From contig NZ_JAKLTN010000004.1 in NCBI RefSeq assembly GCF_022012295.1, forward strand, positions 1 to 64,000: a DNA stretch of 64,000 nt, read 5' to 3'. Every line of letters begins with the position of its first letter. The stretch's first letter is position 1. Made by a program: the position numbers and the translations under genes. This DNA comes from Dechloromonas hankyongensis. GTDB lineage: Bacteria > Pseudomonadota > Gammaproteobacteria > Burkholderiales > Rhodocyclaceae. Below, piece after piece: positions 11,960-34,238 of the stretch. Below the pieces are notes generated by a model. That model was not told where the DNA came from, did no database searches, and saw only the letters and a list, made by a program, of their open reading frames with translations.

Positions 11960-14050
11960 ATGGATGGCAGCAGCGACCAGGGACCCGTGCCCTCGCCCTC
12001 CGGCAGCATCATCAAATACCCGCGCCTGCGGCAGGCCCGGCGGGCGCTGCCGTCTCTGCCAGGCTGGCTGCTGTGGCGCCTCAACCGCCTGCGTTGCATG
12101 TCGCCGGCTGAAGTCGGCCACCGCCTGCTGCGCCGGCTGGAAAGTGAAAGCGAGCGCCTCGGGTGGCGCGGCCAGGCCGTTGCACCGGCCCCCGACCTCG
12201 GACGGCGCGGCCGCCCCTGGCTAGACCTGCCGCCGGACACCGATCCGGCACCCTGCCTGGCGGCGGCCGACCGCCTGGTGGCCGGCCGTTTCGACATCTT
12301 CGCGCTGCACGACATTGATCTCGGCACGCCGCCGGCCTGGAACCGCGACCCGAAAAGCGGCGTCGAGGCGCCGGCCAGCTTCGGCAAGCTGCTCGACTAC
12401 CGCGACCCGCGCCGGGTCGGCGACATCAAGTACCTGTGGGAGCCCAACCGCCACCTGCACCTGGTGACCCTGGGCCAGGCCTGGGCGCTGAGCGGCGAGA
12501 CCGCTTATTTCGAAACCATCGTCTATCACCTGGAAAGCTGGTTCGCGGAATGCCCGCCCGGCCGCGGCCCGAACTGGACCAGCGCGCTGGAAGCCGCCCT
12601 GCGCCTGCTTAATTGGTCGGCCACCTGGCACCTGCTGGGCGGCGCTGCCTCGCCGCTGTTCGGGCCGGCGGCGGGTGCCGCCTTCCGCCGCCGCTGGCTG
12701 GATTCCGTTTATCACCACGCCGCCTTCATCCGCGGCTATTTCTCGCACGATTCGTCGGCCAACAACCACCTGATCGGCGAGGCGGCCGGCCTCTTCGTCG
12801 CGGCGCTGACCTGGCCGCACTGGCCGGCCGCCGCCGAGTGGCAAGGCACGGCGCGGGCCGTGCTGGAGCACGAGGCGGTGCGCCAGAACGCGCCGGACGG
12901 CGTGAACCGCGAGCAGAGCACGGCCTACCAGCTGTTCGTGCTCGATCTGTTGCTCGTGCCGCTGCTCGTCGGGCGGGCCGCGAACATCGAATTTTCATCG
13001 GGCTACCAGGACATCATCGAGAAAATGCTGGCCTTCCTCGCCTCGTTGATGGATGTCGGCGGCCATCTGCCCATGATCGGCGATGCCGACGACGGCGTGG
13101 TGCTCGGCCTGTCGCCGGGTGCCGATCCCGATGCCCGCTGCCGCTCGCTGCTCGCCACCGGCGCCGTGCTGTTCGGGCGCAGCGACTTGCGGACCAAGGC
13201 CGGCGTCCTCGACGAGCGGACGCGCTGGCTGCTCGGCCCCGGCGCCGAGGCCCGCTTCGCCGCCCTGCCGCCGCTTCCTCCCGGCCAGTCGAGCCTGCCC
13301 GTTCGCCAGGCTTTCCCGCAGGGCGGCTACTACATCCTGGGCTGCGCTTTCGAGTCACCCGACGAGATCCGCCTGGTCGCCGACGCCGGGCCGCTCGGTT
13401 TCGGCCGCCTGGCTGCCCACGGCCATGCCGACGCGCTGTCCTTCACGCTGTCCGTGGGCGGCCGGGAATTCCTGATTGACCCCGGCACTTACGCCTACCA
13501 TACCGAGGCCGAATGGCGGCACTATTTCCGCGGCACGGCGGCGCACAACACGGCACGGGTGGACGACGAGGACCAGTCGGTTCCCGGCGGCAACTTCATG
13601 TGGCTGCGCCACGCCAACGCCCAGTGCAGCGACTGGCAGAGCACGCCGGACAAGGACATCTGCGAGGGCTGGCACGACGGCTACCGGCGGCTGGCCGATC
13701 CGGTGGTGCATCAGCGCCGCATCACGCTCGACAAGGCGGCGCGCCGCATCGACATCGAAGACCGTTTCCACATGCGCGGCTGGCACCTGGTCGAGCTGTT
13801 CTTCCATTGCAGCGAACAGTGCCGGATCGAGGCGACGGCCGATGGCTACCGCCTGTCCATCGCCGACCGCAGTCTGCTGCTGCGGCTGCCCAGCCTGCCG
13901 GGCAGCCGCCTGACGCTGCACCGCGGCAGCCGGTCGCCCATCCTCGGCTGGGTGTCGCGCCGTTTCGACGAAAAGGAGCCGACCACGACTTTCCGCTGGT
14001 CGGCCATTCTCAACAGCAATACCTACCTGTGCACCCGCATCGAGTGCTGA
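11960..14050 (+). CDS. Heparinase II/III-like polysaccharide lyase family protein
   Basis: The 696-residue protein has an N-terminal alpha-helical toroid (WEPNRHLHLVTLGQAW, SANNHLIGEAAGLF) followed by the heparinase II/III-like beta domain at about 460-650, with HGHADALSF and GTAAHNT motifs. Such enzymes cleave uronic-acid-containing chains by beta-elimination, and homologues in exopolysaccharide loci are thought to edit the polymer. No clear signal peptide is seen at the N-terminus, so localisation is uncertain. An AAGGAGG ribosome site precedes the ATG. The neighbours make uronic-acid sugar nucleotides, which fits the substrate class. Catalysis is inferred from family only. Confidence 0.87.
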   Translation: MDGSSDQGPVPSPSGSIIKYPRLRQARRALPSLPGWLLWRLNRLRCMSPAEVGHRLLRRLESESERLGWRGQAVAPAPDLGRRGRPWLDLPPDTDPAPCLAAADRLVAGRFDIFALHDIDLGTPPAWNRDPKSGVEAPASFGKLLDYRDPRRVGDIKYLWEPNRHLHLVTLGQAWALSGETAYFETIVYHLESWFAECPPGRGPNWTSALEAALRLLNWSATWHLLGGAASPLFGPAAGAAFRRRWLDSVYHHAAFIRGYFSHDSSANNHLIGEAAGLFVAALTWPHWPAAAEWQGTARAVLEHEAVRQNAPDGVNREQSTAYQLFVLDLLLVPLLVGRAANIEFSSGYQDIIEKMLAFLASLMDVGGHLPMIGDADDGVVLGLSPGADPDARCRSLLATGAVLFGRSDLRTKAGVLDERTRWLLGPGAEARFAALPPLPPGQSSLPVRQAFPQGGYYILGCAFESPDEIRLVADAGPLGFGRLAAHGHADALSFTLSVGGREFLIDPGTYAYHTEAEWRHYFRGTAAHNTARVDDEDQSVPGGNFMWLRHANAQCSDWQSTPDKDICEGWHDGYRRLADPVVHQRRITLDKAARRIDIEDRFHMRGWHLVELFFHCSEQCRIEATADGYRLSIADRSLLLRLPSLPGSRLTLHRGSRSPILGWVSRRFDEKEPTTTFRWSAILNSNTYLCTRIEC

Positions 14051-14252
14051 GGGAAATGCCGGCTGCTTCGTCGTCCCCACGGGACGCGGGAATGCCCTGT
14101 CCGAATCAATCAGCGCCTCCCCCCTGGCAGCCATGCGCCGCTCGGACTAGCGGCCGGCCGCCGATGCCGGGCATGGCCTTCAAACAAGGCTCGCATCGTG
14201 AACCCATCGCGCGTCCGCCCGGGCCGCACACGCCGTCACAGGGAGGTTGGCC
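14051..14252. other. 202-base intergenic region, no gene seen
   Basis: This lies between the heparinase-like gene and the AlgD-like gene. It has a short GTCCC/GGGAC inverted repeat near 14075-14090 but no convincing promoter, terminator or small gene. The last bases hold the GGGAGG ribosome site of the next gene. Confidence 0.4.
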
Positions 14253-15566
14253 ATGAAAATCTGCGTTCTCGGTCTCGGTTATGTCGGTGCGGTGTCGGCC
14301 GCCTGCCTGGCCCAGGAGGGACACGAAGTGATCGGCATCGACCCCGAGCAGACCAAGGTCGACATCATCAACGCCGGGCGCAGCCCGATCATCGAGCAGG
14401 GCATAGGCGAGATCATCGAGGAGCAGGTGGCCAACGGCCGTCTGTGCGCCACGGTCAATGTCGCCGCCGCCATCCCCTATTCCGACATGCTGATCCTGTG
14501 CGTCGGCACGCCCAGCCTGCCCAACGGCGGCCTCGACACGCGCTACGTGCAGCGCGCCTGCGAGCAGATCGGCGAGGTGCTGCGCAACCAGGAGAATGCG
14601 CCCATCGTCGTCGTGCGCAGCACCATGCTGCCCGGCACCATGCGCGAGGTGGTGATCCCGACCCTGGAGGCGACTTCCGGCCGGCACGCCGGCGCCGATT
14701 TCGGGGTCTGCATCAACCCGGAGTTCATGCGCGAGGGGACCGCCGTCTACGACTACTACCATCCCCCCAAGACGGTGATCGGCGAACTCGGCAAGTCGAG
14801 CGGCGACATCCTGGCCAGCCTGTACGCGGACATGCCGGGGCCGGTGATCCGCACCGACATCGAGACCGCCGAGATGGTGAAATACGCCGACAACGCCTGG
14901 CACGCCCTGAAGATCGGCTTCGCCAACGAGATCGGCAACCTGTGCAAGGGCGTCGATATCGACGCCCACCGCCTGATGGACATCTTCTGCCAGGACACCA
15001 AGCTCAACATTTCGCCCAACTACCTGAAGCCCGGCTTCGCCTTCGGCGGCTCCTGCCTGCCCAAGGACCTGCGCGCCATGCTGCACAAGGCGCAGACCCT
15101 GGACATCGCGCTGCCCATCCTGGCCGCCATCCTGCCCAGCAATCAGGCGCAGATCGAGCGCGGCGTGCGGGCGGTGATGGACAAGGGACGCCGCAAGGTC
15201 GGCATCCTCGGCTTCAGCTTCAAGCCGGGGACCGACGACCTGCGCGAAAGCCCGGTCGTCGAGCTGACCGAACGCCTGATCGGCAAGGGCTACGACCTGC
15301 GCATCTACGACCGCAACGTCCGGCTGGCCAGCGTGCATGGCGCCAACCGCGACTACATCCTGAACCACATCCCCCACATCTCGCGCCTGATGGTGTCCGA
15401 CATCGACGAGATCCTCGCCCACGCCGAGACCATCGTGATCGGCAACGCCGAGGCGGAGTTCCGCGACATCGCCAGCCGCCTCGACGCGCACCAGAACATC
15501 GTCGACCTGGTGCGCATCAGCGATTCGCGCAGCGTGGCCGGGGTGTACGAAGGCATCTGCTGGTAG
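14253..15566 (+). CDS. AlgD-like GDP-mannose 6-dehydrogenase
   Basis: The 437-residue protein closely follows Pseudomonas AlgD (436 residues): the N-terminal MKICVLGLGYVGAVSAACLA, the NPEFMREGTAV segment, FGGSCLPKD with the catalytic Cys at residue 268 (the AlgD position), KPGTDDLRESPVVELTE and the terminal EGICW. AlgD oxidises GDP-mannose to GDP-mannuronate. ATG 14253 is preferred over an in-frame TTG at 14247 because GGGAGG lies 6 bases before it. It is co-directional with the following glycosyltransferase (12-base gap). It provides a second kind of uronic-acid donor besides the TviB-type enzyme. A UDP-glucose specificity cannot be fully excluded. Confidence 0.85.
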   Translation: MKICVLGLGYVGAVSAACLAQEGHEVIGIDPEQTKVDIINAGRSPIIEQGIGEIIEEQVANGRLCATVNVAAAIPYSDMLILCVGTPSLPNGGLDTRYVQRACEQIGEVLRNQENAPIVVVRSTMLPGTMREVVIPTLEATSGRHAGADFGVCINPEFMREGTAVYDYYHPPKTVIGELGKSSGDILASLYADMPGPVIRTDIETAEMVKYADNAWHALKIGFANEIGNLCKGVDIDAHRLMDIFCQDTKLNISPNYLKPGFAFGGSCLPKDLRAMLHKAQTLDIALPILAAILPSNQAQIERGVRAVMDKGRRKVGILGFSFKPGTDDLRESPVVELTERLIGKGYDLRIYDRNVRLASVHGANRDYILNHIPHISRLMVSDIDEILAHAETIVIGNAEAEFRDIASRLDAHQNIVDLVRISDSRSVAGVYEGICW

Positions 15567-15578
15567 GAGAGAACGAAT

Positions 15579-16922
15579 ATGGCCAACATCTACCTTCGCG
15601 GCGACCGCCAGCCGGCGCTTTCCGGCAATTCGTCCGGCCTCGGCGGCGGGCGGACCCAGGCGCGGCCCGAAACCAATACCGACAAGTTGCGGCCCAGCGC
15701 CGGCAAGCGCGTGCTGATCCTGGTCGAGAACCTGCCCAGCCCCTTCGACCGCCGCGTCTGGCAGGAAGCGACGACGCTGCGCGCCGCCGGCTACCAGGTC
15801 ACCATCATCTGCCCGACCGGGCGCGGCTATGAGAAGAAGTTCGAGATCGTCGAGCAGATCCACATCCACCGCTACCACCTGCCGGTCGAGGCCGAAGGGC
15901 CGCTCGGCTACGCGCTGGAATACACGACGGCGCTGCTGCAGACCTTCCTGCTCAGCTGGAAGGTCTTCGTCGGCCGCGGCTTCGACGTCATCCACGCCTG
16001 CAATCCGCCCGACCTGTTCTTCCTGATCGGTATTTTTTTCAAGGCCTTCGGCAAAAAGTTCCTGTTCGACCACCACGACATCAATCCAGAACTCTACGAG
16101 GCCAAGTTCGGCCGCCGCGACACCTTCTACCGCCTGCTGCTGCGCTTCGAGCGCTGGTCCTTCAAGACGGCCGACGTGTCAATCGCCACCAACCAGTCGT
16201 ATCGCTGCATCGCCATCGAACGCGGCGGCATGTCGCCCGACCGCGTTTTCGTGGTGCGCAGCGGGCCCAGCCTGGAGCGCCTGCGCATCGGCCCGCCGCA
16301 CGACGAACTGAAGCGCGGCCGCCGCTACCTGGTCGGCTACGTCGGCGTGATGGGCAAGCAGGAAGGCATCGACCATCTGCTGCACGCCGTGCACCACATC
16401 GTCTACGTGCACCGGCGCCAGGACATCCATTTTGGCCTGGTCGGCGGCGGCACCTCGCTCGAAGCCATGAAGAAACTGGCGGCCAGCCTCGGCGTCGCCG
16501 ACTACGTCACCTTCACCGGCCGGGTCAGCGACGAGGAGATGCTGGCCATGCTCAATACCGCCGATGTCTGCGTCAATCCCGACACCGCCAGCGCGATGAA
16601 CGACAAGTCGACGATGAACAAGATCATGGAATACATGGCGCTGGGCAAGCCCATTGTCCAGTTCGACCTGACCGAGGGGCGCTTCTCGGCGCAGGAGTCG
16701 TCGCTCTACGCCGAACCCGACGACAGCGTCGATCTCGCCGCCAAGCTTGTCTTCCTGCTCGACGACGAGGCCCTGCGCCAGCGCATGGGCACGGCCGGCC
16801 GGCAGCGCGTGCTGAACGAACTGGCCTGGCACCACGAGGTACCCAAACTGCTGGCGGCATACCAGACTCTCTGGCAGGGGCAGGAAGGCAGTTCCCCGGC
16901 CAGCCGCGTGGCGGCACCGTGA
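15579..16922 (+). CDS. Glycosyltransferase, GT4-like
   Basis: The 447-residue protein has GT-B architecture. A low-complexity N-terminal extension of about 40 residues is followed by RVLILVENLPSPFDRRVWQEA, FDVIHACNPPDLFF and FDHHDINPELYEAKF. The C-terminal donor domain has YVGVMGKQEGIDHLL and the region NDKSTMNKIMEYMALGKPIV with the retaining Glu. These motifs occur in glycosyltransferases of exopolysaccharide loci. It is 12 bases after the AlgD-like gene and probably uses or extends its uronic-acid product; the actual donor is unknown. Confidence 0.9.
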   Translation: MANIYLRGDRQPALSGNSSGLGGGRTQARPETNTDKLRPSAGKRVLILVENLPSPFDRRVWQEATTLRAAGYQVTIICPTGRGYEKKFEIVEQIHIHRYHLPVEAEGPLGYALEYTTALLQTFLLSWKVFVGRGFDVIHACNPPDLFFLIGIFFKAFGKKFLFDHHDINPELYEAKFGRRDTFYRLLLRFERWSFKTADVSIATNQSYRCIAIERGGMSPDRVFVVRSGPSLERLRIGPPHDELKRGRRYLVGYVGVMGKQEGIDHLLHAVHHIVYVHRRQDIHFGLVGGGTSLEAMKKLAASLGVADYVTFTGRVSDEEMLAMLNTADVCVNPDTASAMNDKSTMNKIMEYMALGKPIVQFDLTEGRFSAQESSLYAEPDDSVDLAAKLVFLLDDEALRQRMGTAGRQRVLNELAWHHEVPKLLAAYQTLWQGQEGSSPASRVAAP

Positions 16923-18356: not shown

Positions 18357-18593
18357 TCAGTGCGCCTTCAGCCAGCCGAGTAGTTCATCCTTGCTCGGCA
18401 TCCGCCCTGAAACCAGGACCGATTCATCGACCACCAGCGCCGGCGTCGTCATGATGGGATAGGCCATGATCTTGTCCATGTCCTTCACATGCTCGAACGT
18501 CGCTTCAATAGCCAGTTCGGCCACGGCATCGCGGGTCAGTTGTTCCAGGCGATTGCATTTGGCGCAGCCACTACCCAATATCTTGATGAGCAT
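18357..18593 (-). CDS. Thioredoxin-like small redox protein
   Basis: The 78-residue protein begins MLIKILGSGCAKC, with the active-site CxxC at C10/C13, and continues with the cis-Pro region TTPALVVDE. This is the compact thioredoxin fold of the MTH895/TM0996 family, often encoded beside YraQ-type permeases. The ATG at 18593 has an AGGGA site upstream and overlaps the end of the permease gene by 23 bases, so the two are coupled. It may reduce or hand over the thiol-reactive substrate of the permease; that is an inference from pairing. Confidence 0.87.
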   Translation of the reverse strand: MLIKILGSGCAKCNRLEQLTRDAVAELAIEATFEHVKDMDKIMAYPIMTTPALVVDESVLVSGRMPSKDELLGWLKAH

Positions 18594-20037
18594 GATGTGC
18601 TCCCTGGTTATGCCTTGCGGCGGTTTCAATCAAATGCAGCGCGACGATGATGAGGGCGACGAAGCCGCCAATGACACCGACCAGCATCCATAGCGACATG
18701 CCGTTGACCCAGGCGCCGTAGGTCAATCCCGAGACGGTCGAGAACAGGGCGACCAGCCCAACGTAGGTCCACGCCCGCAATTTGCCGATGATGGCTGTGG
18801 TGATGAGGATGCTCTGCAGCGACAGTTCCGGGTCGGCCATCAGGTAAGCGATGAGCGGCCCCGGATGCATGCCGAGCGACAGGAACATCTTGGCAATGGG
18901 TACTTCGACCAGGGTTGGGAAATACATGAAGACCCCGAACACGACACCTGCCAGGTTGGCCAGCACGGTGTTTTCACCGGCTACCGTGCGAATCCACTCG
19001 GGCTGAATGAAAACCCGGATGACGCCAACCAGGAATACGCCAACGACCAACAGCGGAAATATCATCTTCACGAAGCGCCAGGTTTCCCACAGCCATTGCT
19101 GAACATCCCAGTCGTCGAAGCGGCGAGCCAACGGAATGAGCGCGAGACAGAACAGCGTCACTGCCAGGGTTCGTCCGGTCACGGTGAGCGCGATGCCGGC
19201 ATCGACTACCTTGACGCCCAGCGCGGCAAACACGAGGGTGAGCATGGTCAGGCCAAGTGCCACGGGCGTAAAGCGATTGAAGCCTTCGTCGACCTTGCCC
19301 AATCCGCGCCAGGCGAAAATGCCGATACCCGCCAGCAAGGCGATCAACAGGGCGCCTTGCAAACTCAGGCCTTCGGCCCCGATGGCCTCATTGACCGGCA
19401 CCCACCGGTCGAGGGATTGTTGCACGGCCACTCCCCCATGCCAGGGAAGCTCGGCGCTGAACAACACGGCCTTGAGGAAATCCAGCTTCAACGTGCCGGA
19501 AATCAATAAGGCGACCAGGGCACCGACAAAGAGCAGCGTCTTGCCTGGAATAGCCCCCCCTTCGGCGAAAGTTTGCGTATCAGCCATCCGGGCAACATCC
19601 GTCTCGCGGAAGACGATGGCCATAATCATCCCGATGCCGACCCCAAACGATAGCGCCAGGAGGATGCGGGCAATGGCGAAGTCGGCGCCCAGCGCGACGC
19701 CGGTGTAGGCCAAGGCCAGGATGTTGGCTGCGGGCGCAAAGAACAGGAAGGTAATGGCCGGGCCAAGGCCGGCACCTTTCTTGTAGATGCCGGCGAACAG
19801 CGGCTGGATGGTGCAGGAACAAACCGCCAGCAAGCTGCCGGCACCCGCGGCGGCGGAATAGGATTTCCACTTGGGCGCATCCGGCCCGAGAAAACGGATG
19901 ATGGACTGCTGCGGCACCAAGGCCGACAACGCCCCGGCAATGAAGAAAGCAGGCACCAGGCAGAGCAGCACATGAGCTGCCAGATAGGATGCCAGGCTAT
20001 CGAGGCCTCCTTGAAACGCGGTGATCATCCAGTTCAT
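18571..20037 (-). CDS. YraQ/ArsP-family membrane permease
   Basis: The 488-residue polytopic protein has at least ten hydrophobic segments. The family signature is in the first third (SLLAVCSCTIQPLFAG, with C73 and C75, then FFAPAANI) and repeats in the second half (FMYFPTLVEVPIAK). Members include ArsP, which exports trivalent organoarsenicals, and uncharacterised YraQ proteins; the CSC pair suggests a thiol-reactive or metal(loid) substrate. It is co-transcribed with a thioredoxin-like gene. A 5-6-5 inverted repeat upstream could be an ArsR-like operator, but no arsR is adjacent. Base composition is below that of the window. Confidence 0.87.
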   Translation of the reverse strand: MNWMITAFQGGLDSLASYLAAHVLLCLVPAFFIAGALSALVPQQSIIRFLGPDAPKWKSYSAAAGAGSLLAVCSCTIQPLFAGIYKKGAGLGPAITFLFFAPAANILALAYTGVALGADFAIARILLALSFGVGIGMIMAIVFRETDVARMADTQTFAEGGAIPGKTLLFVGALVALLISGTLKLDFLKAVLFSAELPWHGGVAVQQSLDRWVPVNEAIGAEGLSLQGALLIALLAGIGIFAWRGLGKVDEGFNRFTPVALGLTMLTLVFAALGVKVVDAGIALTVTGRTLAVTLFCLALIPLARRFDDWDVQQWLWETWRFVKMIFPLLVVGVFLVGVIRVFIQPEWIRTVAGENTVLANLAGVVFGVFMYFPTLVEVPIAKMFLSLGMHPGPLIAYLMADPELSLQSILITTAIIGKLRAWTYVGLVALFSTVSGLTYGAWVNGMSLWMLVGVIGGFVALIIVALHLIETAARHNQGAHHAHQDIG

Positions 20038-20472
20038 GTTTGACTCCCCGTTGCCTTGGTTTTTAAGTCGCTTCCATGATTCGAGTATTGTCGAAATATA
20101 TGACGAAGTCCAGCGACTCTTTTGTTGCGCATTGCGGGCATGGCATCGATGAGCAGGCCGTTACCGCTCCTGGCCGACTCCGGCCCGATGTCGCCTGGTT
20201 GCCGTAATGAACGATAGCTATCGACCCCAAACGGCCTGTTTGCTTGTGCCGAGCGGTCGTCCAGCCATACCCGGTTTGCCGCTTTCCGGAATGTCAGCGA
20301 TTGCCGATGGCAATGTCGCCTGATTTCCGACAACGATCACGTCAATCACCGACCGAAGTTACGGGTTTAGCTGATATTTAGTTCAGCAAAATACTTCGAA
20401 AATTCCCCTTAACGGCTCGAATGACCTTTGCATCTCACACTGCAGACGAACTACTTAAGGGGGGGTATTACC
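20038..20472. other. 435-base intergenic region between divergent genes
   Basis: This separates the permease gene (minus) from the small protein at 20473 (plus). It contains the TTCGA/TCGAA repeat near the permease and an ATTGCC-GAT-GGCAAT inverted repeat at 20300-20314. An open minus-strand frame across 20034-20333 has no ribosome site, motif or sensible composition and was not called. The last 40 bases include a TTGCAT element upstream of the plus-strand gene. Confidence 0.5.
20080..20095 (-). promoter_or_regulatory. Candidate operator of the permease operon
   Basis: TTCGA and TCGAA flank a 6-base spacer, 43 bases before the permease start. The extended site reads ATTCGA-N6-TCGAAAT with one mismatch. 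The position and an AT-rich surround suit an ArsR/SmtB-type repressor site, but this is unproven. Confidence 0.4.
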
Positions 20473-20733
20473 ATGGGGATCGTATCAAGGATCAAAGGGA
20501 TTTTCCGGAGCCCGGTGACCATACAGAGTGACTCGGTGTACTTCCAGGTGGTACGCGACCAGAACACTGGACAGTCGTCGCTGTCGGTCTCCGTTTCTGC
20601 ACCGAATGACCTGATCGAACAACTCGAAAGCTTGCTCAAGTCTCACTGTTACCGGTTGATGGCCGATTACGCGGCGTCCGGGGTATCGAAGATTCAAGGG
20701 GCCGTTGTTTTCAACCTGCCCAAGCAGCAATAG
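20473..20733 (+). CDS. Small cytoplasmic protein, function unknown
   Basis: The 86-residue protein has no signal peptide or membrane segment. It begins MGIVSRIKGIFRSP and has an alternating strand-helix composition (VYFQVVRDQNTGQSSLSVSVSAP, then IEQLESLLKSH). A run of seven G precedes the ATG as ribosome site. It converges with the GGDEF-EAL gene; between them lies a short GTCAC/GTGAC inverted repeat. The family is not recognised. Confidence 0.6.
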   Translation: MGIVSRIKGIFRSPVTIQSDSVYFQVVRDQNTGQSSLSVSVSAPNDLIEQLESLLKSHCYRLMADYAASGVSKIQGAVVFNLPKQQ

Positions 20734-20772: not shown

Positions 20773-22842
20773 TCAGGCCGCCCGCTGCCGGCGCCATTGC
20801 TCGAATTCGTCCGCCGGCATGGGACGGCAAAAATGGAAGCCCTGGCCGTGCCGGCAGTGGTGGGCCTGCACGAATGCCAGATCGTCATCCGATTCGATGC
20901 CTTCGGCGACGACTTCGAGACCCAGCGACCGCCCCAGCGCGATGATGCCCTCGGCGATCGCCAGGTCGGCCGGTTTGTGCCCTATGTCGGTGACGAAGGA
21001 CTGATCCAGTTTCAGGATGTCGATCGGCATCCGGGCAAGATAGCTCAGGCTCGAATAGCCGGTGCCGAAATCGTCCAGCGCCACCTTGACGTGCATGTCC
21101 TTCAGTTCGCGCAAGACGGTCACGGCGTCCTCGGCGTTGCGCATGATCGTGCTCTCGGTCATCTCCACCCACAGGTCTTCGGCGCCGATGCCCTCGCGCT
21201 TCAGCGCATCGGCCACGCTGCGTGCGAAGCCGGTCTTGCGGAACTGGGCCGGCGAGACGTTCATCGATACCGGCACCATGCGCAGGCCCCGGTCGCGCCA
21301 TTCGCGCTGCTGGCGGCATACCTCCTGCAGCACCCATTCCCCGAGGGTCTGCATGAAGCCGGCCGTTTCGGCCACCGGTATGAACTGCTCCGGCTGCCAG
21401 TCCGTGCATGGCCAGCGCAGCAGCGCCTCGGCGCCCACCACGGTGCGCGTTGCGGTGTCGAACACCGGCTGGTAGAAGAGCACGAACTCGTGCTGCTCCA
21501 GGCCGTTGCGCAAGCGGCTTTCAATCTTCAGGGACTGCGACACGCGTTCGTTGAACGCCGCCTTGAAAAACTGGAAGTTGTTACGCCCGCTGTCCTTGGC
21601 GTGGTACATGGCCGTGTCGGCGTTCTTGATCAGGTCTTCCACGCTGTCGCCATCCTGCGGAAACAGGCTGATGCCGATACTGGGCAGCACCGTCAGCGCG
21701 AGCCCGTCCGTGTGGTAGGGCTGGCCCAGCCGGTCGAGGATGTGGCGCGTGGCCGTGGCGGCGTCTTCCACGCCGCCGATGTGCGACACCACCGCCAGGA
21801 ATTCGTCACCGCCGAGGCGCCCCACCGTATCCTCGGCGCGCACGCAACCAGACAGCCGCCGCGCGACTTCCCTGAGCACGGCGTCGCCCACATCGTGCCC
21901 ATAGGTGTCGTTGATCGGCTTGAAACGGTCGAGGTCGACGAACAGGAAGGCGCATGCCTTGCGGCTGCGCCGCGCGCTGGCCAACTCACGTTCGGCCAGT
22001 TCGTAGAGCAGCGACCGGTTGGGCAATTCGGTCAGCGGGTCGTGCTGCAATACCTGGCGGATCCGGTCTTCCACCGCCTTGCGCTCGTCGATGTCCTCGA
22101 CGACGCCGATCACGCGCAGCGGCTCGCCGCCCAGGTCCCGTTCCACGACCTCGCCCTGGGCAAGCACCCAGCGCCAGCGGCCCGGCTTGGCGAGCAGCCG
22201 GCACTCCGCCCGGAAGCCCGAAGTCTCGCCGCGCAAATGCCGCTCGAACGCCAGGCGCGTCGGCAACAAGTCGTCCGGATGAGTCAGATTTTCCCAGGCC
22301 TCGAGCCGCGGCGCGATGTCGCCCGGGCGGTAACCGAGCAATGCAAGCAGCCGGTCGTTGCAGGTCACGAAATCGGTACGCAGATCGATGTCCCAGAAGC
22401 CCAGCCCGGCGGCTTCCATCGCCAAGGTCAGGCGCTTTTCGCTTTCCTGCAGGGCGTGCAGGGCATGGCTGCGTTCGGTGATATCGCGCAGCAGGGCGAC
22501 ATGCGCCTGCTGGCCCGCCCAGTCGATGTCCATCACACGCATTTCCGATATCCGCTCCGTACCTTGCGGACTGACGATGTCGACCTCGGTGGTCTCGCCG
22601 GCCGTGAGCGGAAAGCCGAAGGGCTGGCCGAGCAGCCCGGACGGGTGCCCGGCGAACAGTTCCTCGGCGGCATGGTTGGCAAACTGTACCGTGCCCTGTT
22701 GATCGACAACGACGAAAGCATCCGGGCTGCGCTCGATGATGTTGCGCAGCCGTGCCTCGCTGGCCGCCAGCCGCGTGCGGAGATCGTGCAGCGTACTGTT
22801 GCGCGCGCCGCTCCGGCCGCGACCCGACCCGGCTTTACTCAT
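20773..22842 (-). CDS. PAS-PAS-GGDEF-EAL c-di-GMP signalling protein
   Basis: The 689-residue cytoplasmic protein has an initial PAS domain (about 25-125), a second PAS with PAC (135-258), a GGDEF domain with intact GGDEF at 344-348 and an RxxD inhibitory site at 335-338, and an EAL domain starting EALLRW at 472. Downstream EAL motifs are DDFGTGYSSL (590-599) and AEGIE (646-650). It can in principle both make and degrade cyclic di-GMP. No membrane segment is seen. The ATG at 22842 lies inside the kaiC stop region (ATGAGTAA), so it is translationally coupled to kaiC as third gene of the kaiB-kaiC operon. It is likely the output module of the Kai pair. Confidence 0.93.
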   Translation of the reverse strand: MSKAGSGRGRSGARNSTLHDLRTRLAASEARLRNIIERSPDAFVVVDQQGTVQFANHAAEELFAGHPSGLLGQPFGFPLTAGETTEVDIVSPQGTERISEMRVMDIDWAGQQAHVALLRDITERSHALHALQESEKRLTLAMEAAGLGFWDIDLRTDFVTCNDRLLALLGYRPGDIAPRLEAWENLTHPDDLLPTRLAFERHLRGETSGFRAECRLLAKPGRWRWVLAQGEVVERDLGGEPLRVIGVVEDIDERKAVEDRIRQVLQHDPLTELPNRSLLYELAERELASARRSRKACAFLFVDLDRFKPINDTYGHDVGDAVLREVARRLSGCVRAEDTVGRLGGDEFLAVVSHIGGVEDAATATRHILDRLGQPYHTDGLALTVLPSIGISLFPQDGDSVEDLIKNADTAMYHAKDSGRNNFQFFKAAFNERVSQSLKIESRLRNGLEQHEFVLFYQPVFDTATRTVVGAEALLRWPCTDWQPEQFIPVAETAGFMQTLGEWVLQEVCRQQREWRDRGLRMVPVSMNVSPAQFRKTGFARSVADALKREGIGAEDLWVEMTESTIMRNAEDAVTVLRELKDMHVKVALDDFGTGYSSLSYLARMPIDILKLDQSFVTDIGHKPADLAIAEGIIALGRSLGLEVVAEGIESDDDLAFVQAHHCRHGQGFHFCRPMPADEFEQWRRQRAA

Positions 22843-24370
22843 TGTGCTCACCAGCGGATTTCTCGATGCCGATCCCGTCCGCTGCCAATGTCCGGGAACT
22901 GAAGAGGGTCGAGTCGTACGGCTCGCGGAACTGCTCGCCGACGTGCAGGCCAGTGCTGTCGATGGTGAATTCCCGGATCGCCGTATCATGGCGCGAACCG
23001 CGCATTTTCAGCACCGTCACGCCATGGCGCATGACCCCGACGTATTCCATGTAGCGCAACAGGATGATCGAGTCGGTGAAGGTGGTGAGCTGGGTCTCGG
23101 TGATGCGCGAGGTCGCGCCGAAGATGGGCTCGCTGGTCGCGGTAAACAAGGCCGGCACCTGCAGTTGCTTGATGTACGCGGTCAAACCGAGAATGAAGTC
23201 GCGCAGGCTTTTTTCGGAAGCCAGCCGCCCCAGCGAGGTCAGGCTGTCGAGCACGATGCGGTGTGGACGAAAGCTGCCGATGAGACCCTTGATCATGATC
23301 AGCCGGTCTTCCAGATTCATCGATTCGGGATACTCGCAGACAATGTGCAGCAGCCCTTCGCTTTCCATTTTCGCGAAGTCGCGGCCCCAGCCGGCGGCGT
23401 TTCGCACCAACTGGTCACGGCTTTCCTCGAAGCCGAGAAACAGGCAGCGCTCGCCGTTGGTCACAGCGCCGCAGGCGAACTCGGTGGCCACCAGGGTCTT
23501 GCCGGCGCCGGTGGGGCCCGATACCAGGGTGGTCGAGTCGCGAAACGGCCCACCGTCGCACATGTCGTCCAGGCCGGCATTGCCGAATGTGGCGCGCACG
23601 TTCGAGGATTTGTGTTCGAGGTGGATGGCCGACAAGGGCATCACTTCGATTCCGCTGCCATCGGTGATGACGAAGGGAAACTCGCCGCGCCGATGCGCGA
23701 CGCCGCGCATTTTGAGGATCTCCAGTGTGCGCCGCCGCACTTCCGCTTCGAGCACGTTGCGCAGAATGACGACGTTGTCGACGACAAATTCCTCGCCCCA
23801 CCGGTAGCCGCCTTCTCCGTAATCCGCGGTTCGCTCGCTGCTGATCACCGAGGTCACGTCCATGGTCCTCAGCATGCGGCTGATGCGGAACAATTCGAAG
23901 CGGACGCGTGCCCGGTCGCTGAAACGCGTGAACAAGGCGCCAACCGCGTCGATCGCCAGGCGTTTGGCGCCTATCGTTCCCACGGCGGCGTTGATCTGCG
24001 CGACCAATCCGCCCAGGTCGTATTCCCCTACCGTCACGTCTTCCTCGTCGGCGGCCGTGCCATCGATGAACGCCCATTTTCCTTCGGCTTCCCAGCGGGC
24101 GACGTCCCAGCCCAGCGAAAGCATGGCACCGCGAACGTCTCCGGGCTGTTCCTCGAGCGTGACGAATACGCCGGGTTGATCGTACTGGAGGATGCCTTCG
24201 GCCAGGAATTGCGCGATGAAGATGGCCTTGCCGCTGCCCGGCGTGCCTTCGATCATGGTCATGCGATCTTTCGACAGGCCACCCATCGCGAGCAGGTCGA
24301 AACCGGGTATGCCGGTCGGCATCCGCGGGATGCTGCCGGAGGTTTCCTTGTGTTTTCGGCGTGTAGTCAT
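22835..24370 (-). CDS. kaiC: KaiC-family circadian clock-type ATPase/kinase
   Basis: The 511-residue protein has the double RecA-like KaiC layout. The CI domain (about 15-255) has Walker A GTPGSGKA at 42-49 and the catalytic pair E73/E74. The CII domain (260-500) has GPTGAGKT at 285-292 and E315/E316. Cyanobacterial KaiC autophosphorylates Ser431/Thr432 in CII; here the aligned pair is T429/T430 in TETQLTTFTDSI. The Walker A residue after Lys in CI is Ala49 where Thr is normal. It overlaps kaiB (ATGA) and the downstream GGDEF-EAL gene. No KaiA is encoded here, as usual outside cyanobacteria. True circadian function is not implied. Confidence 0.94.
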   Translation of the reverse strand: MTTRRKHKETSGSIPRMPTGIPGFDLLAMGGLSKDRMTMIEGTPGSGKAIFIAQFLAEGILQYDQPGVFVTLEEQPGDVRGAMLSLGWDVARWEAEGKWAFIDGTAADEEDVTVGEYDLGGLVAQINAAVGTIGAKRLAIDAVGALFTRFSDRARVRFELFRISRMLRTMDVTSVISSERTADYGEGGYRWGEEFVVDNVVILRNVLEAEVRRRTLEILKMRGVAHRRGEFPFVITDGSGIEVMPLSAIHLEHKSSNVRATFGNAGLDDMCDGGPFRDSTTLVSGPTGAGKTLVATEFACGAVTNGERCLFLGFEESRDQLVRNAAGWGRDFAKMESEGLLHIVCEYPESMNLEDRLIMIKGLIGSFRPHRIVLDSLTSLGRLASEKSLRDFILGLTAYIKQLQVPALFTATSEPIFGATSRITETQLTTFTDSIILLRYMEYVGVMRHGVTVLKMRGSRHDTAIREFTIDSTGLHVGEQFREPYDSTLFSSRTLAADGIGIEKSAGEHNE

Positions 24371-24696
24371 GTTGGCTCATCCTTTGACCGGGGAAAGCGC
24401 GGAAAGGGTTCGCCGAATTCTTCGACGCCAAGGGCTACCAGCACTTTGGCCGGATCCGACAGGTCGCCGATCACCCGGCTGAGAGGAAGCGGTGCAACAC
24501 GAAGCGTGGTGGGGGTGGCAAAGATGTGCTCGGCTGCTGCCAACTCGGGATGCTTCAGCACGTCGATCAGGTCAAGCGCATAGCCGATGCCGTCGGCGCC
24601 GAGATATTGCTCGCAAATCCGCCGCAGATTGTATGCGGCGCGCAGCGAGCGCGGCGTTTGGCCCGAGACATACAACTGGAACTGATATTTTGCCAT
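24367..24696 (-). CDS. kaiB: KaiB-family clock protein
   Basis: The 109-residue protein matches KaiB: LYVSGQTPRSLRAAYNLRRICE at the N-terminus, the VLKHPELAAAEHIFATPT segment of the fold-switching region, and PLPLSRVIGDLSD. KaiB docks on the CI ring of KaiC and resets its phosphorylation state. It is the first gene of a three-gene operon and shares ATGA with kaiC. A GAGG site lies 9 bases before the ATG. The C-terminal tail (PFPRFPRSKDEPT) is slightly longer than in the cyanobacterial protein. Confidence 0.93.
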   Translation of the reverse strand: MAKYQFQLYVSGQTPRSLRAAYNLRRICEQYLGADGIGYALDLIDVLKHPELAAAEHIFATPTTLRVAPLPLSRVIGDLSDPAKVLVALGVEEFGEPFPRFPRSKDEPT

Positions 24697-24865
24697 TCGC
24701 TACGTGCCTCAACGTTCATACCTCACAGGCTCCGGGGCTCGTTTTCAAAAGACCCGGCGCTGCAGGTTTAAGTTCGCCCGGTCTCGAAGTGGAGCAGTCG
24801 CTTGAATGTCAGCAGTCGAATGAGGCTGAAGTCCGGCGGCGGCCGATTCAGCCGAGATTTCGCGG

Positions 24866-25756
24866 TCAGAAGCTGTTGATGACGGTGCCGACGACGTGCG
24901 TGCCGGTTTCGGCGAGGCCCTTGAGCATGCCGTCGGTGGCCTCGATCCGGGTGTGATCGCGGCGTGCCAGGACCAGGGCGTTGCCGGCGCGGAAGGCGAC
25001 ACTGCGGGCGTCGGCACAGAATTGCGTAGCCGTGGTGTCGAGCAGGATGAGGTCGAATTTGACCGCCAGTTCGTCGAGCAGGCCGGCCAGCCGGGGCCGC
25101 GACAGCAGTTCCTGCGGGTTGGGCGGCACGGCGCCGGCCGGCAGCAGCGAGAGTTTCGGGCAGCCGGACACTGGCAGCAGCACGGTGTCGGTATCGGCCC
25201 GCCCGGCCAGCACGGCGGCCAGGCCGATGCGGTTGGGTGTGTTGAACAGCCGGTGCTGGCGCGGATTGCGCAGGTCGGCGTCGATCAGCAGCGTGCGCAT
25301 GCCGAGCTGCGAGAAGATGATGGCCAGGTTGGCCGCGATGCAGCTGCGCCCCTCGCCGCGCCCCGGGCTGACGATGGCCAGCGAGCGGCGGCCGGCGGCC
25401 GGATCGAGCCAGCGCAAGAGCAGCTGGGTGCGCAGGCCGCGCAATTCCTCGGTGCACCGGTGGCGCGGCTGGAAGGCGGCGATCAGTTCGGTGCTCGCCC
25501 CGGCGTCGCCGGGCAGCAGTTGCGGCAGGCCGTACTGGCGGTCCAGCGCCTGTTCGACATCCTCGTCGTCGAGCAGGCCGAGGCGGCGGGCGGCTTCGCC
25601 GAAAAGCAGGCCGCGCCGATGCTGCAGGTCGACGATGCGGTCGAGGTCGGCCACCTTGAGCTTGCCTTCGTCGACCAGGATGGCGCCGAGCTGGTGGTCG
25701 TCGTGCGCGATGACGCGGCTGCTACCTTCCAGGGGGAGAACGTTGTCGTGGGCCAT
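24866..25756 (-). CDS. epsG: EpsG-type BY-kinase for exopolysaccharide chain length
   Basis: The 296-residue protein is the cytoplasmic tyrosine-kinase half of a polysaccharide co-polymerase. Its P-loop is PGRGEGRS (131-138), with Arg where most P-loops have Lys; this is my recollection of the EpsG family too. Walker A' is LLIDADLR (156-163) and Walker B is LILLDTT. An N-terminal region (22-80) with LGAILVDEGKLKVADLDRIV and a second LFGEAARRLG...LDRQYGLPQL half resembles the MshEN c-di-GMP-binding fold. There is no Tyr-rich C-terminal tail. It follows epsF by 9 bases and is the last gene of epsDEFG. Confidence 0.9.
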   Translation of the reverse strand: MAHDNVLPLEGSSRVIAHDDHQLGAILVDEGKLKVADLDRIVDLQHRRGLLFGEAARRLGLLDDEDVEQALDRQYGLPQLLPGDAGASTELIAAFQPRHRCTEELRGLRTQLLLRWLDPAAGRRSLAIVSPGRGEGRSCIAANLAIIFSQLGMRTLLIDADLRNPRQHRLFNTPNRIGLAAVLAGRADTDTVLLPVSGCPKLSLLPAGAVPPNPQELLSRPRLAGLLDELAVKFDLILLDTTATQFCADARSVAFRAGNALVLARRDHTRIEATDGMLKGLAETGTHVVGTVINSF

Positions 25757-25765
25757 GGTTGTTCC

Positions 25766-27124
25766 TCAGCCGGGATTGGGTAAAGCGGGCAGGCCGTTGG
25801 CCGGGCCGGGCAGGCGGCCGGTTTCCGGCTGCCACGAGGACAGTTCGGCGAGGACGGGGACCGGCCATTCGTTGCGCAGGTCGCGCCGCGAACGGACCCG
25901 GTGGTCGCGCATCTCCATCAGGTAGACGATGCACAACCCGAGCAGGGTGCCGACCACCACGGCCAGGACGAGGTTGAGCAGCATGATCGGGCGCGTCGCC
26001 TTGAACGGCGGCACGGCGGGGTGCAGGACGCTGATGTTGGTCAGGTTGGCGCGGCTCTCGACGCGATTTTCCACCGAGTGCTGCATGGCCGTCTCATAGG
26101 CCTTCTGGGCGATATCGACGTCGCGCGTCAGGACGGCGAGCTGATCTCGGTATTCCTTGAGCTGCAGCACGCGCTCCCGCTGCGTTTCCAGCTCCTCGCG
26201 CAGTTCGGCGACGCGCCGCTTGTTCTGCGCCGTCGGCCCGGGTGCGTCGGGACCGCCTTCGGCCCGCAGCATGGCGCGCAGGCGCTGGGTTTCGGCCAGC
26301 TGCCGCAGGTACGAGGGGTGTCTGGTGCCGAGCCGGTCCGTGTATTCCTGCAGCTTGCTCTCGGCGCGCATCAGCTCGCTGCGGATGTTCTGGCTGGCCG
26401 AGCTTTCGCGCACGTCGGGGCCGGGCGCGCCGGCGCGCCGGGACTGTGCCTTGGCTACCTCGCCGGCGATGTCGGTGAGGGCCAGGCTTTCGACGTCGTA
26501 GCGCTCGTCGACCAGGCCCTTTTCCTTCTGGTAGGCGGTCAGGCGGCCCTGGGCCCGCTCCAGGTTGCCGCGCAGTTCGCGGATCTGCTCGTCGAACCAG
26601 GCCGCCGTCTGGCGCGTGGGCGCGACGCGCAGTTCGAGGGCGGTCGCGACGTAGGCCTTGGCGAAGGCATTGGCGACCAGCGCCGAGAACTGCGCGTCGG
26701 GCGACGGGAAGGCGATCTGGATGATGCTGCTCTGCGTGGTGTCGGTCTTCAGGTCGAGCAGCAGCGTCATGGCCAGCCAATCCTCGATCGAGCCGTCGCC
26801 GTCGGTGGCCTTGGCGAAGGCTTCGCGCGATTCCGGCAGCTTGGCCAGCTCGAGGCTGTCCACCACCTTGCGGGCCACTTTCTGGCTGTTGATGATGTCG
26901 ACCTGGGTCTGCAGGTAGGCGATGCGTTCGCGCAGATTCACCTCGGGAGTCGCCGTGTGCATCAGCTGGTCGTCCTTGCTGTCGACCAGCACGGCGGCCT
27001 TGGCGAGGTAGGTCTTGGGCATCACCAGGCTGACCACGAGGGTGACCAGCACGGTCGTGCCAAGCACGAAGAGCAGGATGCGGAAGCGGGCCCGGACGGC
27101 GGCGAGCAGGAGATAGGGATTCAT
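25766..27124 (-). CDS. epsF: EpsF-type chain-length determinant (Wzz-like)
   Basis: The 452-residue inner-membrane protein has a membrane helix at about 15-38, a long periplasmic part with coiled coil (about 180-350, many Glu/Arg/Gln), a second helix at about 390-412 and a short cytoplasmic Pro-rich tail. It has the Wzz/GNVR pattern including a conserved Pro before the second helix (HPAVPPFKATRP). Together with EpsG it controls polymer length and links the polymerase to the outer-membrane exporter. It sits between epsE and epsG with small gaps. Confidence 0.92.
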   Translation of the reverse strand: MNPYLLLAAVRARFRILLFVLGTTVLVTLVVSLVMPKTYLAKAAVLVDSKDDQLMHTATPEVNLRERIAYLQTQVDIINSQKVARKVVDSLELAKLPESREAFAKATDGDGSIEDWLAMTLLLDLKTDTTQSSIIQIAFPSPDAQFSALVANAFAKAYVATALELRVAPTRQTAAWFDEQIRELRGNLERAQGRLTAYQKEKGLVDERYDVESLALTDIAGEVAKAQSRRAGAPGPDVRESSASQNIRSELMRAESKLQEYTDRLGTRHPSYLRQLAETQRLRAMLRAEGGPDAPGPTAQNKRRVAELREELETQRERVLQLKEYRDQLAVLTRDVDIAQKAYETAMQHSVENRVESRANLTNISVLHPAVPPFKATRPIMLLNLVLAVVVGTLLGLCIVYLMEMRDHRVRSRRDLRNEWPVPVLAELSSWQPETGRLPGPANGLPALPNPG

Positions 27125-27156
27125 GGCGGCAGGGCTCGCTGGCAGTGGCGGGGAGC

Positions 27157-27969
27157 CTAGAACAGGCTTTCCCTGACCTGGATGATGTCATTGGGCTGGA
27201 CATGGTCGCCGAGCTGGACTTCGCTGCGCGCCAGCACGCCGTCGGCATTGCGGCGGGCGATGCGGATGCCGCGTTCGGTGCCGCGCACGGTGACGCCGCC
27301 GCCCAACGACAGGGCCTGCATGACGGTCATGTCGCTCTCCAGCCGGTAACTGCCGGCGCGTTGCACTTCGCCGTAGATGTAGAACATCGGCGCTCGGCGT
27401 ACGAAGACCGTATCGCCGTTCTCGACCTCGACGTTGGCTGCCATGTCACCGTTTCGGTACATCTGGACCAGGTCGATGTCGCGCCGCTCGGTGTTGCCGT
27501 TGCGCTGGCGGACCAGGGTCACCACGTCATCGCCGGTCGGCGCGATGCCACCGGCCAGGGCCAGCATGTCGGTGACCGTGGTGCTCGTCTCGTCGAGCGC
27601 GTAGCGGCCCGGCCGCGTCACCTGGCCGAGCACCGAGACCTGGCGGCTGCGGACCTGGACGAGGGCGACGTTGACCTGCGGATCGCGGATGAAATTGCCG
27701 TCCTTGAGCAGTTGGGCGATGCGTTCGCCGGCCGCCACCGAACTCAGGCCGTCGAGCTTGACATTGCCGAGCAGCGGAAAGCGGATGAAGCCGTTGGCCG
27801 AGATGCGTGCCTCGGTGGTCAGGTCGGGGTTCTCGAAGACGGTGACGCGGATGCTGTCGCCCGGCCCCAGGGTGTCGTCGGCGGCCAGCAACGGCCCGGA
27901 GAGTCCCAGGCAGGCAAGGCAGGCCAGGGTGGCCAGCCAGCGCGAGAATGTTCTCAGGTACGGTTTCAT
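27157..27969 (-). CDS. epsE: EpsE-type polysaccharide export protein (Wza-like)
   Basis: The 270-residue protein has a signal peptide (about 1-30, LACLGLSGPLLAAD), a poly-export domain beginning DTLGPGDSIRVTVFENPDL and two SLBB-type segments (VLGQVTRPGRYALDE and YIYGEVQRAGSYRLE). It forms the periplasmic and outer-membrane part of the export channel. There is no lipobox Cys, so unlike Wza it is probably not acylated. It is 32 bases upstream of epsF and 35 downstream of epsD on the same strand. Confidence 0.93.
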   Translation of the reverse strand: MKPYLRTFSRWLATLACLACLGLSGPLLAADDTLGPGDSIRVTVFENPDLTTEARISANGFIRFPLLGNVKLDGLSSVAAGERIAQLLKDGNFIRDPQVNVALVQVRSRQVSVLGQVTRPGRYALDETSTTVTDMLALAGGIAPTGDDVVTLVRQRNGNTERRDIDLVQMYRNGDMAANVEVENGDTVFVRRAPMFYIYGEVQRAGSYRLESDMTVMQALSLGGGVTVRGTERGIRIARRNADGVLARSEVQLGDHVQPNDIIQVRESLF

Positions 27970-28004
27970 GCTGTGTTTCCTTTCATCCGAGGTGACGTGC
28001 AGGA

Positions 28005-28943
28005 TCAGAGGACTCTCGACAGGCCCTTGTTGATATGGGTGACATCCTTGGCCGGCGGCTGCGGCGCCGTCGGGGCGGCCGAGGCCCCCGGCGGTGTCGC
28101 GCCGGTTTCACGGGCGAAGGGGCCGAGGTAGCGGATATCGGCTTTTTCGCGCAGCTGGCTGGCCTTTTCGCGCATGAAGGCCTGGCGTTTTTCGGCGAGC
28201 AGCATCTTTTCGATGGCCGGGGTCGCCTCGCTGAGGCTGAATGGCGCCGGCTGCGAGGTCATCAGCTGCACGATGTTCAGGCTGTCGCTGCCTTCGAAAA
28301 TGGTCATCTGGGCGTTCTGCATCATGGCCAGCCGGGGCAGCAGCCCGGTCGGCAACTGCTCGGCCGTCTTGATCGAGATGACGCGCTGGAAGGGCAGATC
28401 GTTCTCGCTCAGCCAATTGGCGATGTCGTCGAGCTTGCCGCTGATGGCCACCAGTTGCCGAAAAGCCTCGAGGTGCTCGTGGCCGACATGGGTGATCAGT
28501 TCCTGGAAATAATAGATGCGGCGCTGCTCGAAAAGGCCGGGATGGTCCTGGTAGAAGCGGTTGACCTCTTCGGAACTCGGCTCGACCACGCGCATGCCCC
28601 GATTGACGTAGGCTTGGGCGAGGATGTGATGGCGCACGGCCTCGAGTTCGACCATCACCGTCGGATCCTTGTCGAGGTTCATTTCCTGCGCCCGCTGGGC
28701 GAGCAGTTCCTGGTCGATCAGGCGGTCGAGGGTGTCTACGGCTTCCTGGCTGGGCGGCGCCGGCGGCTGCCCGCTATCGCTCGCATGGGGCGCATCGATG
28801 GTCTGGTGAAAGATGATGGCCTTGCCATTGACCGTGGCCGCTACCTGGCCGCCCGCGGCGGCGTCGATATCCTTGCCGCAGCCCGCCAGGACCACCATGG
28901 CGACGGCCAACGGCACCCATAAGGCACGGAGTTGTGGATTCAC
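28005..28943 (-). CDS. epsD: EpsD-family peptidyl-prolyl isomerase-like lipoprotein
   Basis: The 312-residue protein has a lipoprotein signal with lipobox LAGC (Cys22), a SurA-like N-terminal helical part (QEAVDTLDRLIDQELLAQRAQEMNL) and a parvulin-like remnant around 125-230. The EpsD family is encoded at the head of epsDEFG operons in bacteria with exosortase-type exopolysaccharide loci. It may assist folding of export or PEP-CTERM proteins. Whether the isomerase site is active is unclear. It is divergent from the giant lyase gene across a 351-base region with an 18-bp palindrome. Confidence 0.88.
   Translation of the reverse strand: MNPQLRALWVPLAVAMVVLAGCGKDIDAAAGGQVAATVNGKAIIFHQTIDAPHASDSGQPPAPPSQEAVDTLDRLIDQELLAQRAQEMNLDKDPTVMVELEAVRHHILAQAYVNRGMRVVEPSSEEVNRFYQDHPGLFEQRRIYYFQELITHVGHEHLEAFRQLVAISGKLDDIANWLSENDLPFQRVISIKTAEQLPTGLLPRLAMMQNAQMTIFEGSDSLNIVQLMTSQPAPFSLSEATPAIEKMLLAEKRQAFMREKASQLREKADIRYLGPFARETGATPPGASAAPTAPQPPAKDVTHINKGLSRVL

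Positions 28944-34238
<5,295 letters not shown>

Follow-up and report, generated by a model that had tools for sequence, protein, structure and literature searches.

The first 64,000 nucleotides of contig NZ_JAKLTN010000004.1 from Dechloromonas hankyongensis (referred to below as the window) carry three adjacent minus-strand genes encoding KaiB, KaiC and a PAS-PAS-GGDEF-EAL protein, an enzyme of the kind that makes and degrades cyclic di-GMP (c-di-GMP). The new point is the first PAS domain of this enzyme, PAS1, which we named KAP (Kai-associated PAS); the coupling of kai genes to c-di-GMP enzymes is itself known, and the link to the adjoining exopolysaccharide export genes is local. Our proposal, which we regard as evenly poised, is that the three genes form a KaiB-KaiC signalling operon whose output enzyme would synthesize and break down c-di-GMP, with KAP as the coupling module and with outputs that can be exchanged. 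To our knowledge, the route by which Kai proteins signal onward is known in only a minority of cases outside cyanobacteria. A PAS subtype kept with kaiBC in six phyla while the outputs vary offers a concrete candidate contact domain and a handle for Kai outputs in genomes.

Linkage of KAP to kai genes

KAP spans residues 25-135 of the enzyme (22438-22770, minus strand) and is recognized by its kai linkage and by a predicted structure that lacks pocket helices. It is followed by PAS2 (22057-22449, minus strand), an ordinary PAS domain by Pfam that served as internal control. PAS1, and not PAS2, was the part that the N-terminus of the enzyme has in common with other kai loci. PAS1 was searched against 38 genomes in which kaiC had been found, with matches of at least 50 bits counted and the window itself excluded. 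Results showed that 59 of the 63 matches lay in a kai cluster, 56 within 10 kb of kaiC and three beside the kaiC or kaiB of another cluster. The best match was kai-linked in 33 of the 35 genomes having one, the window's own included. In the same 38 genomes, PAS2 gave matches genome-wide, and none of its best 40 non-self matches lay near kaiC; below these 40, three among the matches listed fell within 10 kb of kaiC (G771:C178, G875:C194, G929:C11).

Further searches extended this pattern. Across 19 additional kai genomes, obtained by a nearest-relative search, all 22 PAS1 matches of at least 40 bits fell by coordinates in the kai locus, and two of the 19 had no PAS1 match. A single one of 72,556 plasmid records matched at 1e-8, in a gene that begins 47 bases after kaiC. 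When 219 sampled genomes of the phylum were searched, with at most 21 candidates scored per genome so that weak matches may be missed, 29 had a PAS1 match at 1e-8. These included 22 of the 23 genomes with a kaiC match at 1e-100, the only level of that search, which leaves other KaiC types uncounted. In another four (G841, G925, G934, G936), kaiC or kaiB stood at the match. The 23rd kaiC genome (G1106) was taken as not drawn among the 219; it matches at 3e-14 in the 38-genome search. A profile built from 32 KAPs was then run on 66 genomes of the class. The window's KAP, whose own sequence is in the profile, scored 135.8 bits, well above ordinary PAS domains; one other protein reached 108 bits, and the rest 59 or less. 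The gap in KAP scores from 50 to 70 bits was observed on loci among which are the profile's own seeds, and the test on the 66 class genomes is the cleaner one. Sixteen plasmid records carried KaiC; among the eight examined, KAP scored 124 bits in one, 61-63 in two (one of them in a broken frame) and at most 17 in five. Titles and abstract openings of open-licence PMC papers, a scope outside which most subscription papers lie, gave no pointer to a Kai-specific PAS domain.

Some individual loci are worth recording. In two of the phylum genomes (L109 and L110, from G934 and G936), a KAP kinase gene follows directly downstream of kaiB, and the 16-17 kb fetched contain no kaiC. The 1.28-Mb plasmid pTomTYG65a of Sphingobium sp. 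TomTYG65 (L121) has the order kaiB-kaiC-KAP kinase, and its kinase is annotated as a hypothetical protein.

Exchange of outputs, predicted fold and competing explanations

To describe the outputs joined to KAP, we assembled 60 kai loci: the window, 19 nearest-relative loci, 39 fetched loci and one plasmid. They were chosen by KaiC similarity and are not independent. A KAP of at least 70 bits lay within 6 kb of kaiC in 51 of the 60. The output fused to it was a histidine kinase in 32 loci, GGDEF in 17, GGDEF-EAL in 13 and another part in 11, multiple counting being possible; the last class includes a SpoIIE-type phosphatase in two Streptomyces and Chloroflexus proteins without a nameable output part. 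By record titles, the KAP loci belong to Chloroflexota, Bacteroidota, Planctomycetota, Tectomicrobia, Actinomycetota and Pseudomonadota, some of these being the phyla in which we take the named organisms to stand. The KAP gene is upstream of kaiBC in L019, L080 and L081 and downstream in most others. On a poorly resolved tree of 98 KAP domains and 95 columns, the output label changed 11 times for histidine kinase, seven for GGDEF and seven for GGDEF-EAL, and well-supported branches forced at least three, four and two of these changes, respectively. These changes indicate that outputs were exchanged repeatedly while KAP was retained. Since KAP is common to kinases, cyclases and SpoIIE phosphatases beside kaiBC, the system appears modular, with one Kai reader and exchangeable outputs. 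The clusters themselves can be large: L085 holds two kaiC and three kaiB genes, L084 two of each, and L093 three tandem KAP proteins with two output types.

The KAP consensus has a near-invariant Asn, an FGxP motif and an end of the form EMRV...W...LRDxTER. An AlphaFold model (mean pLDDT 84.6, 14 sequences) predicted the order helix-strand-strand-helix-loop-three strands-helix, with no helix between residues 40 and 97 after the C-alpha helix (33-39); the model of PAS2 has two helices at the corresponding place (enzyme residues 180-186 and 189-203). The fold matches of the KAP model were PAS folds (LOV, FixL and DosP, Z up to 12.6), and the A3 profile weakly matched the PAS domains of FixL, WalK and DosP. 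LOV and FixL chains are about 20 residues longer than KAP over the same stretch, and these extra residues are taken to be the helices missing from the KAP model. Such shortness is not unique to KAP: FlrB (7yrt) has a PAS-like domain that does not exceed it in residues spanned. The pocket helices of FixL and LOV help to hold heme or flavin. KAP has no Cys, and no His is conserved among the 98 KAPs. Given a model without pocket helices and the lack of these residues, KAP would not be expected to resemble the heme PAS of FixL and DosP or LOV in function, and its predicted fold suits protein contact better than heme or flavin sensing.

We therefore propose a mechanism in which KAP would contact KaiC, KaiB or their complex, and would pass the nucleotide or assembly state of the Kai proteins through PAS2 and helical linkers to the GGDEF-EAL pair. 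That pair would thereby set c-di-GMP, by net cyclase or net esterase activity. The signal would run from the Kai proteins to the enzyme as output, not input, and any timing role is likewise presumptive. A broader version of this idea sees KAP as a ligand-free PAS domain dedicated to reading the state of KaiB and KaiC and acting as a general Kai output adapter outside cyanobacteria, with interchangeable kinases, diguanylate cyclases, cyclase/esterases and PP2C phosphatases. We put this forward tentatively, with the balance somewhat against it. If true, KAP would do outside cyanobacteria what SasA does within them through its KaiB-like domain, and c-di-GMP would be under direct Kai control in the operon of the window. 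Confirmation would link a Kai system directly to c-di-GMP, a main switch between motile and surface life.

Several observations weigh against a KAP devoted to Kai proteins. For four of the 63 matches in the 38 kaiC genomes, no kai gene was in view: the first is at the edge of a contig, another sits on a contig of 3.9 kb, a third is separated from kaiC by 48 kb and the last is a plain case. The same holds for two weaker matches of 43-46 bits. Three of these genomes (G018, G1220, G1331) had no PAS1 match at 1e-5, and two (G056, G1330) had matches of at most 31 bits. Three phylum genomes (G748, G801, G802) had a match and no kai gene in the stretch fetched. The 108-bit KAP of the class genomes (G1140) belongs to a kinase of 1747 aa, and the 19 kb fetched there contain no kai gene. 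Strict kai-exclusiveness of KAP was accordingly rejected. Nine of the 60 kai loci had no KAP, and the profile that scored these loci was seeded partly from them. Two congeners (G018, G056) have kaiC-kaiB followed by a PAS-GAF-GGDEF-EAL-REC gene without KAP, so KAP is not needed for the pairing of kai genes with c-di-GMP enzymes. Distances between KaiC and the neighbouring KAP were uncorrelated (28 pairs, r = 0.11, a value equalled or exceeded in 313 of 2000 permutations); this search for KaiC-KAP co-evolution thus gave no signal, and the shortness of the domain makes the test weak either way. The binding of KAP to Kai proteins is our inference.

These results bear on two other explanations of the linkage. 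KAP may mark common ancestry without any contact with Kai proteins, if an ancestral kaiBC cluster happened to contain a kinase with this type of PAS domain and the other output proteins arose later, through duplication in place and swapping of domains. Several clusters (L093, L065, L084) have KAP proteins in tandem whose outputs differ, which is what local duplication would give, and the uncorrelated KaiC and KAP distances agree with it. Descent accounts less well for outputs exchanged repeatedly while KAP was kept, for KAP in six phyla and on either side of kaiBC, and for the fact that PAS2-type domains were not so retained. On this evidence we find linkage by descent rather unlikely, though still a serious contender.

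Alternatively, KAP could be an input sensor of redox, light, oxygen or a metabolite. It would then convey the state of the environment to KaiBC or work alongside it, with the enzyme tuning the Kai proteins or sharing their regulation. PAS domains are usually sensory, and the nearest folds of KAP include the FixL heme PAS and LOV domains. PAS kinases adjoin kai genes in R. rubrum (PMC10931921) and R. palustris (PMC4794148), and such kinases next to kaiBC may serve the clock as oxygen sensors, according to the available part of the R. rubrum paper. Against a sensory role stand the predicted absence of the ligand-holding helices, the missing Cys and unconserved His, and partner enzymes that end in effector outputs; we consider an input sensor unlikely. 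Reading of the Kai state by KAP is the explanation that we carry forward.

The operon, its Kai proteins and its c-di-GMP enzyme

The first-pass annotation had described three overlapping genes, and the coordinates bear this out, all on the minus strand: kaiB at 24367-24696 (109 aa), kaiC at 22835-24370 (511 aa, two KaiC domains) and the PAS-PAS-GGDEF-EAL gene at 20773-22842 (689 aa, identified by its Pfam domains, motifs and model). The stop codon of kaiB and the ATG of kaiC share ATGA (24367-24370), and the overlap between kaiC and the enzyme gene is 8 bases (22835-22842), given an enzyme start at 22842. The mechanical open reading frame of the enzyme extends to 22989; the inner start is favoured because in Pseudoduganella namucuonensis (L025), the closest relative found, the first start codon of the frame is at the kaiC stop. 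In that relative, the one examined for conservation of the overlaps, the genes share the four bases ATGA at each of the two junctions. Short overlaps occur often in bacterial operons and, taken alone, are weak evidence.

KaiB belongs to its family by Pfam (65.4 bits, cut-off 27) and lies under the cut-offs of the circadian KaiB equivalogs (TIGR02654, 77.2 of 145.3 bits; PRK09301, 78.8 of 110). KaiC matches Pfam PF06745 in two stretches (341 bits), in keeping with two tandem RecA-like domains, and passes one curated circadian KaiC model, NCBIfam PRK09302, at 575 bits (cut-off 408); its best solved relative is the KaiC of 8zn5 (551 bits). Because it misses the cut-off of the circadian KaiC equivalog TIGR02655 (484.8 bits, cut-off 546.25), it was filed as KaiC family only. 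A defence-system reading was rejected, the match of KaiC to mad8 being weak and of part length.

The KaiC alignment showed that the Walker A motif of CI reads GTPGSGKA (24224-24247, minus strand), with Ala in place of the T53 of S. elongatus. Among 64 other aligned KaiC rows, this last residue is Thr in 63, and the remaining row is cut off there. The CII Walker A, GPTGAGKT, and both EE pairs are intact, so that the cyanobacterial-type pattern GxxxxGK[T/S] is present in CII and departed from in CI, which ends GKA. Aligned to 1u9i, the S431/T432 positions of CII are Thr-Thr (23081-23086, minus strand), both putatively phosphorylatable; in the aligned KaiCs they are mostly Ser-Thr or Ser-Ser. In the P. 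namucuonensis KaiC these positions are Thr-Glu, and the Glu at the T432 position may mimic phosphorylation. In view of the GKA of CI, the Thr-Thr phosphosites and the missed cut-offs of the circadian models, a phosphorylation oscillator should not be assumed. A cyanobacterial-type phosphorylation clock is doubtful for this KaiC, and an ATP/ADP-driven switch or hourglass would be as likely.

The enzyme scored 166 bits for GGDEF, 227 for EAL, 71 for PAS_3 and 52 for PAS_4 in Pfam. Its GGDEF domain covers residues 266-422 (21577-22047, minus strand) by Pfam and motifs, with the GGDEF motif at residues 344-348 (21799-21813) and the I-site RAED at residues 335-338 (21829-21840), both intact. The EAL domain, residues 443-674 (20821-21516, minus strand), retains its catalytic motifs, that is, EAL at residues 472-474 and likewise NVS, TES, DDFGTGYSS, LKLD, AEGIE and GQGF. 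This motif check and an alignment with PaMorA (4rnh) upheld the initial view of intact GGDEF, I-site and EAL motifs. As judged from these residues, the active site, the RxxD I-site and the metal-binding and catalytic residues of EAL are all predicted to be in place. The enzyme gave no Pfam KaiB match at 0.001, and a KaiB-like N-terminal docking domain of the SasA or Nt_HK type was rejected.

Genomic setting and comparison with known systems

The epsG, epsF, epsE and epsD genes (24866-28943, minus strand) were assigned through Pfam Wzz/GNVR, Poly_export/SLBB and Rotamase_2, epsG only weakly. As first noted, this operon adjoins the kai genes. It lies on the same strand, and epsG ends at 24866, upstream of kaiB by a gap of 169 bases (24697-24865, minus strand). 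Sites resembling a terminator or a promoter were not listed for the gap by a consensus scan, which had little power, as over 11.5 kb it returned fewer sites than in shuffled sequence. Read-through from epsDEFG into the kai operon is possible. The gap was rejected as an RNA element, since its RNA folds like shuffles. Heparinase II/III-like proteins flank the kai operon on both sides (11960-16922 and 29034-34238), and a UDP-sugar dehydrogenase and a glycosyltransferase are also there, which places the operon inside a polysaccharide gene region. Past the 3′ end of the enzyme gene, a plus-strand open reading frame of 87 aa (20470-20733) has no Pfam match, and an ArsP_1-type permease (18357-20037, 488 aa, Pfam 218 bits) overlaps a small minus-strand gene that looks thioredoxin-like by eye.

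On the view suggested by the first-pass annotation, Kai proteins would time the export of matrix by way of the adjoining epsDEFG. The shared strand, the 169-base gap without a listed terminator and the polysaccharide genes on both flanks favour this view. The other 59 kai loci, each covered over 6-20 kb, yielded no eps genes, and the sole match there of the window's polysaccharide genes was a glycosyltransferase with 30% identity in L021. Conversely, 22 other genomes of the genus hold 24 epsG-like places, and only two of these genomes have a KaiC match, which in G018 is on a different contig and in G056 lies at a distance of about 800 kb. KaiC of the window's kind occurs in only one of 76 genus genomes, and c-di-GMP usually acts cell-wide. 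A matrix link is therefore unsupported as a general feature and was rejected as a conserved one; a dedicated timer of matrix export is very improbable, and the epsDEFG neighbour is the context of one genome only.

The KaiC of three congeners is of another kind, with 30-35% identity to that of the window. At 1e-100, a KaiC match was present in 7 of 297 genomes of the family and in 1 of 399, 7 of 369 and 23 of 398 sampled genomes of the order, class and phylum; these draws overlap, and the window's own genome is counted in each. Given this rarity at every rank, the kai operon is an accessory, patchily spread element. The nearest relative found, in P. namucuonensis, has the same kaiB-kaiC-PAS-PAS-GGDEF-EAL order with both junctions overlapping, and identities of 64% for KaiC, 72% for GGDEF, 64% for EAL and 64% for PAS1. 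It differs in a Walker A ending GKT, in the Thr-Glu pair at 431/432 and in having no eps genes in the 13 kb of the locus.

Outside Kai systems, E. coli DosP, Pseudomonas MorA and PA0575 share the GGDEF-EAL pair with the enzyme of the window. DosP also has two PAS domains ahead of the pair, and its PAS differs in binding heme (PDB titles). We know of no Kai link for any of the three. Rhodobacter-type kaiC-kaiB-histidine kinase clusters resemble the operon in joining KaiB and KaiC to a kinase gene; they differ in gene order, in a KaiC only 34-37% identical to that of the window and in their KAP profile scores, none of which exceeded 17 bits among the five plasmid loci examined. Within the genus, a third congener (G064) has a KAP-GGDEF-EAL gene upstream of kaiC-kaiB. 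Together with the KAP-free pairs of G018 and G056, it suggests that this one genus brought Kai proteins and c-di-GMP enzymes together on more than one occasion, an argument in favour of a functional link.

The coupling of kaiBC to a c-di-GMP enzyme, which recurs among the 60 kai loci (13 KAP-GGDEF-EAL and 17 KAP-GGDEF), had initially been thought undescribed. It had in fact been reported in PMC3164672 (2011) and PMC5944118, each available to us in part. The former, the Ramlibacter tataouinensis genome paper, states that outside cyanobacteria a histidine kinase or GGDEF/EAL gene lies immediately downstream of almost all kaiB-kaiC clusters. Its kaiC context group 1 has this arrangement, with a PAS_2PAC_GGDEF_EAL protein in the legend. 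In the part available, no PAS domain common to several output types is singled out, and the Kai-contacting domain proposed there (Nt_HK) resembles KaiB/SasA, to which the enzyme of the window has no match. In S. elongatus, altered c-di-GMP levels shift the rhythm, and in the accessible part of the report (PMC13001216, 2026) the direct action on Kai proteins in vitro is not a consistent one. In Thiodictyon syntrophicum, a diguanylate cyclase gene adjoins kaiCBB and the two are said to act together (PMC5944118, available part); there the c-di-GMP gene is upstream of the kai genes, and in the window it is downstream. The Thiodictyon locus among our 60 (L019, from another record of the genus) likewise carries its KAP-GGDEF-EAL gene upstream of kaiB.

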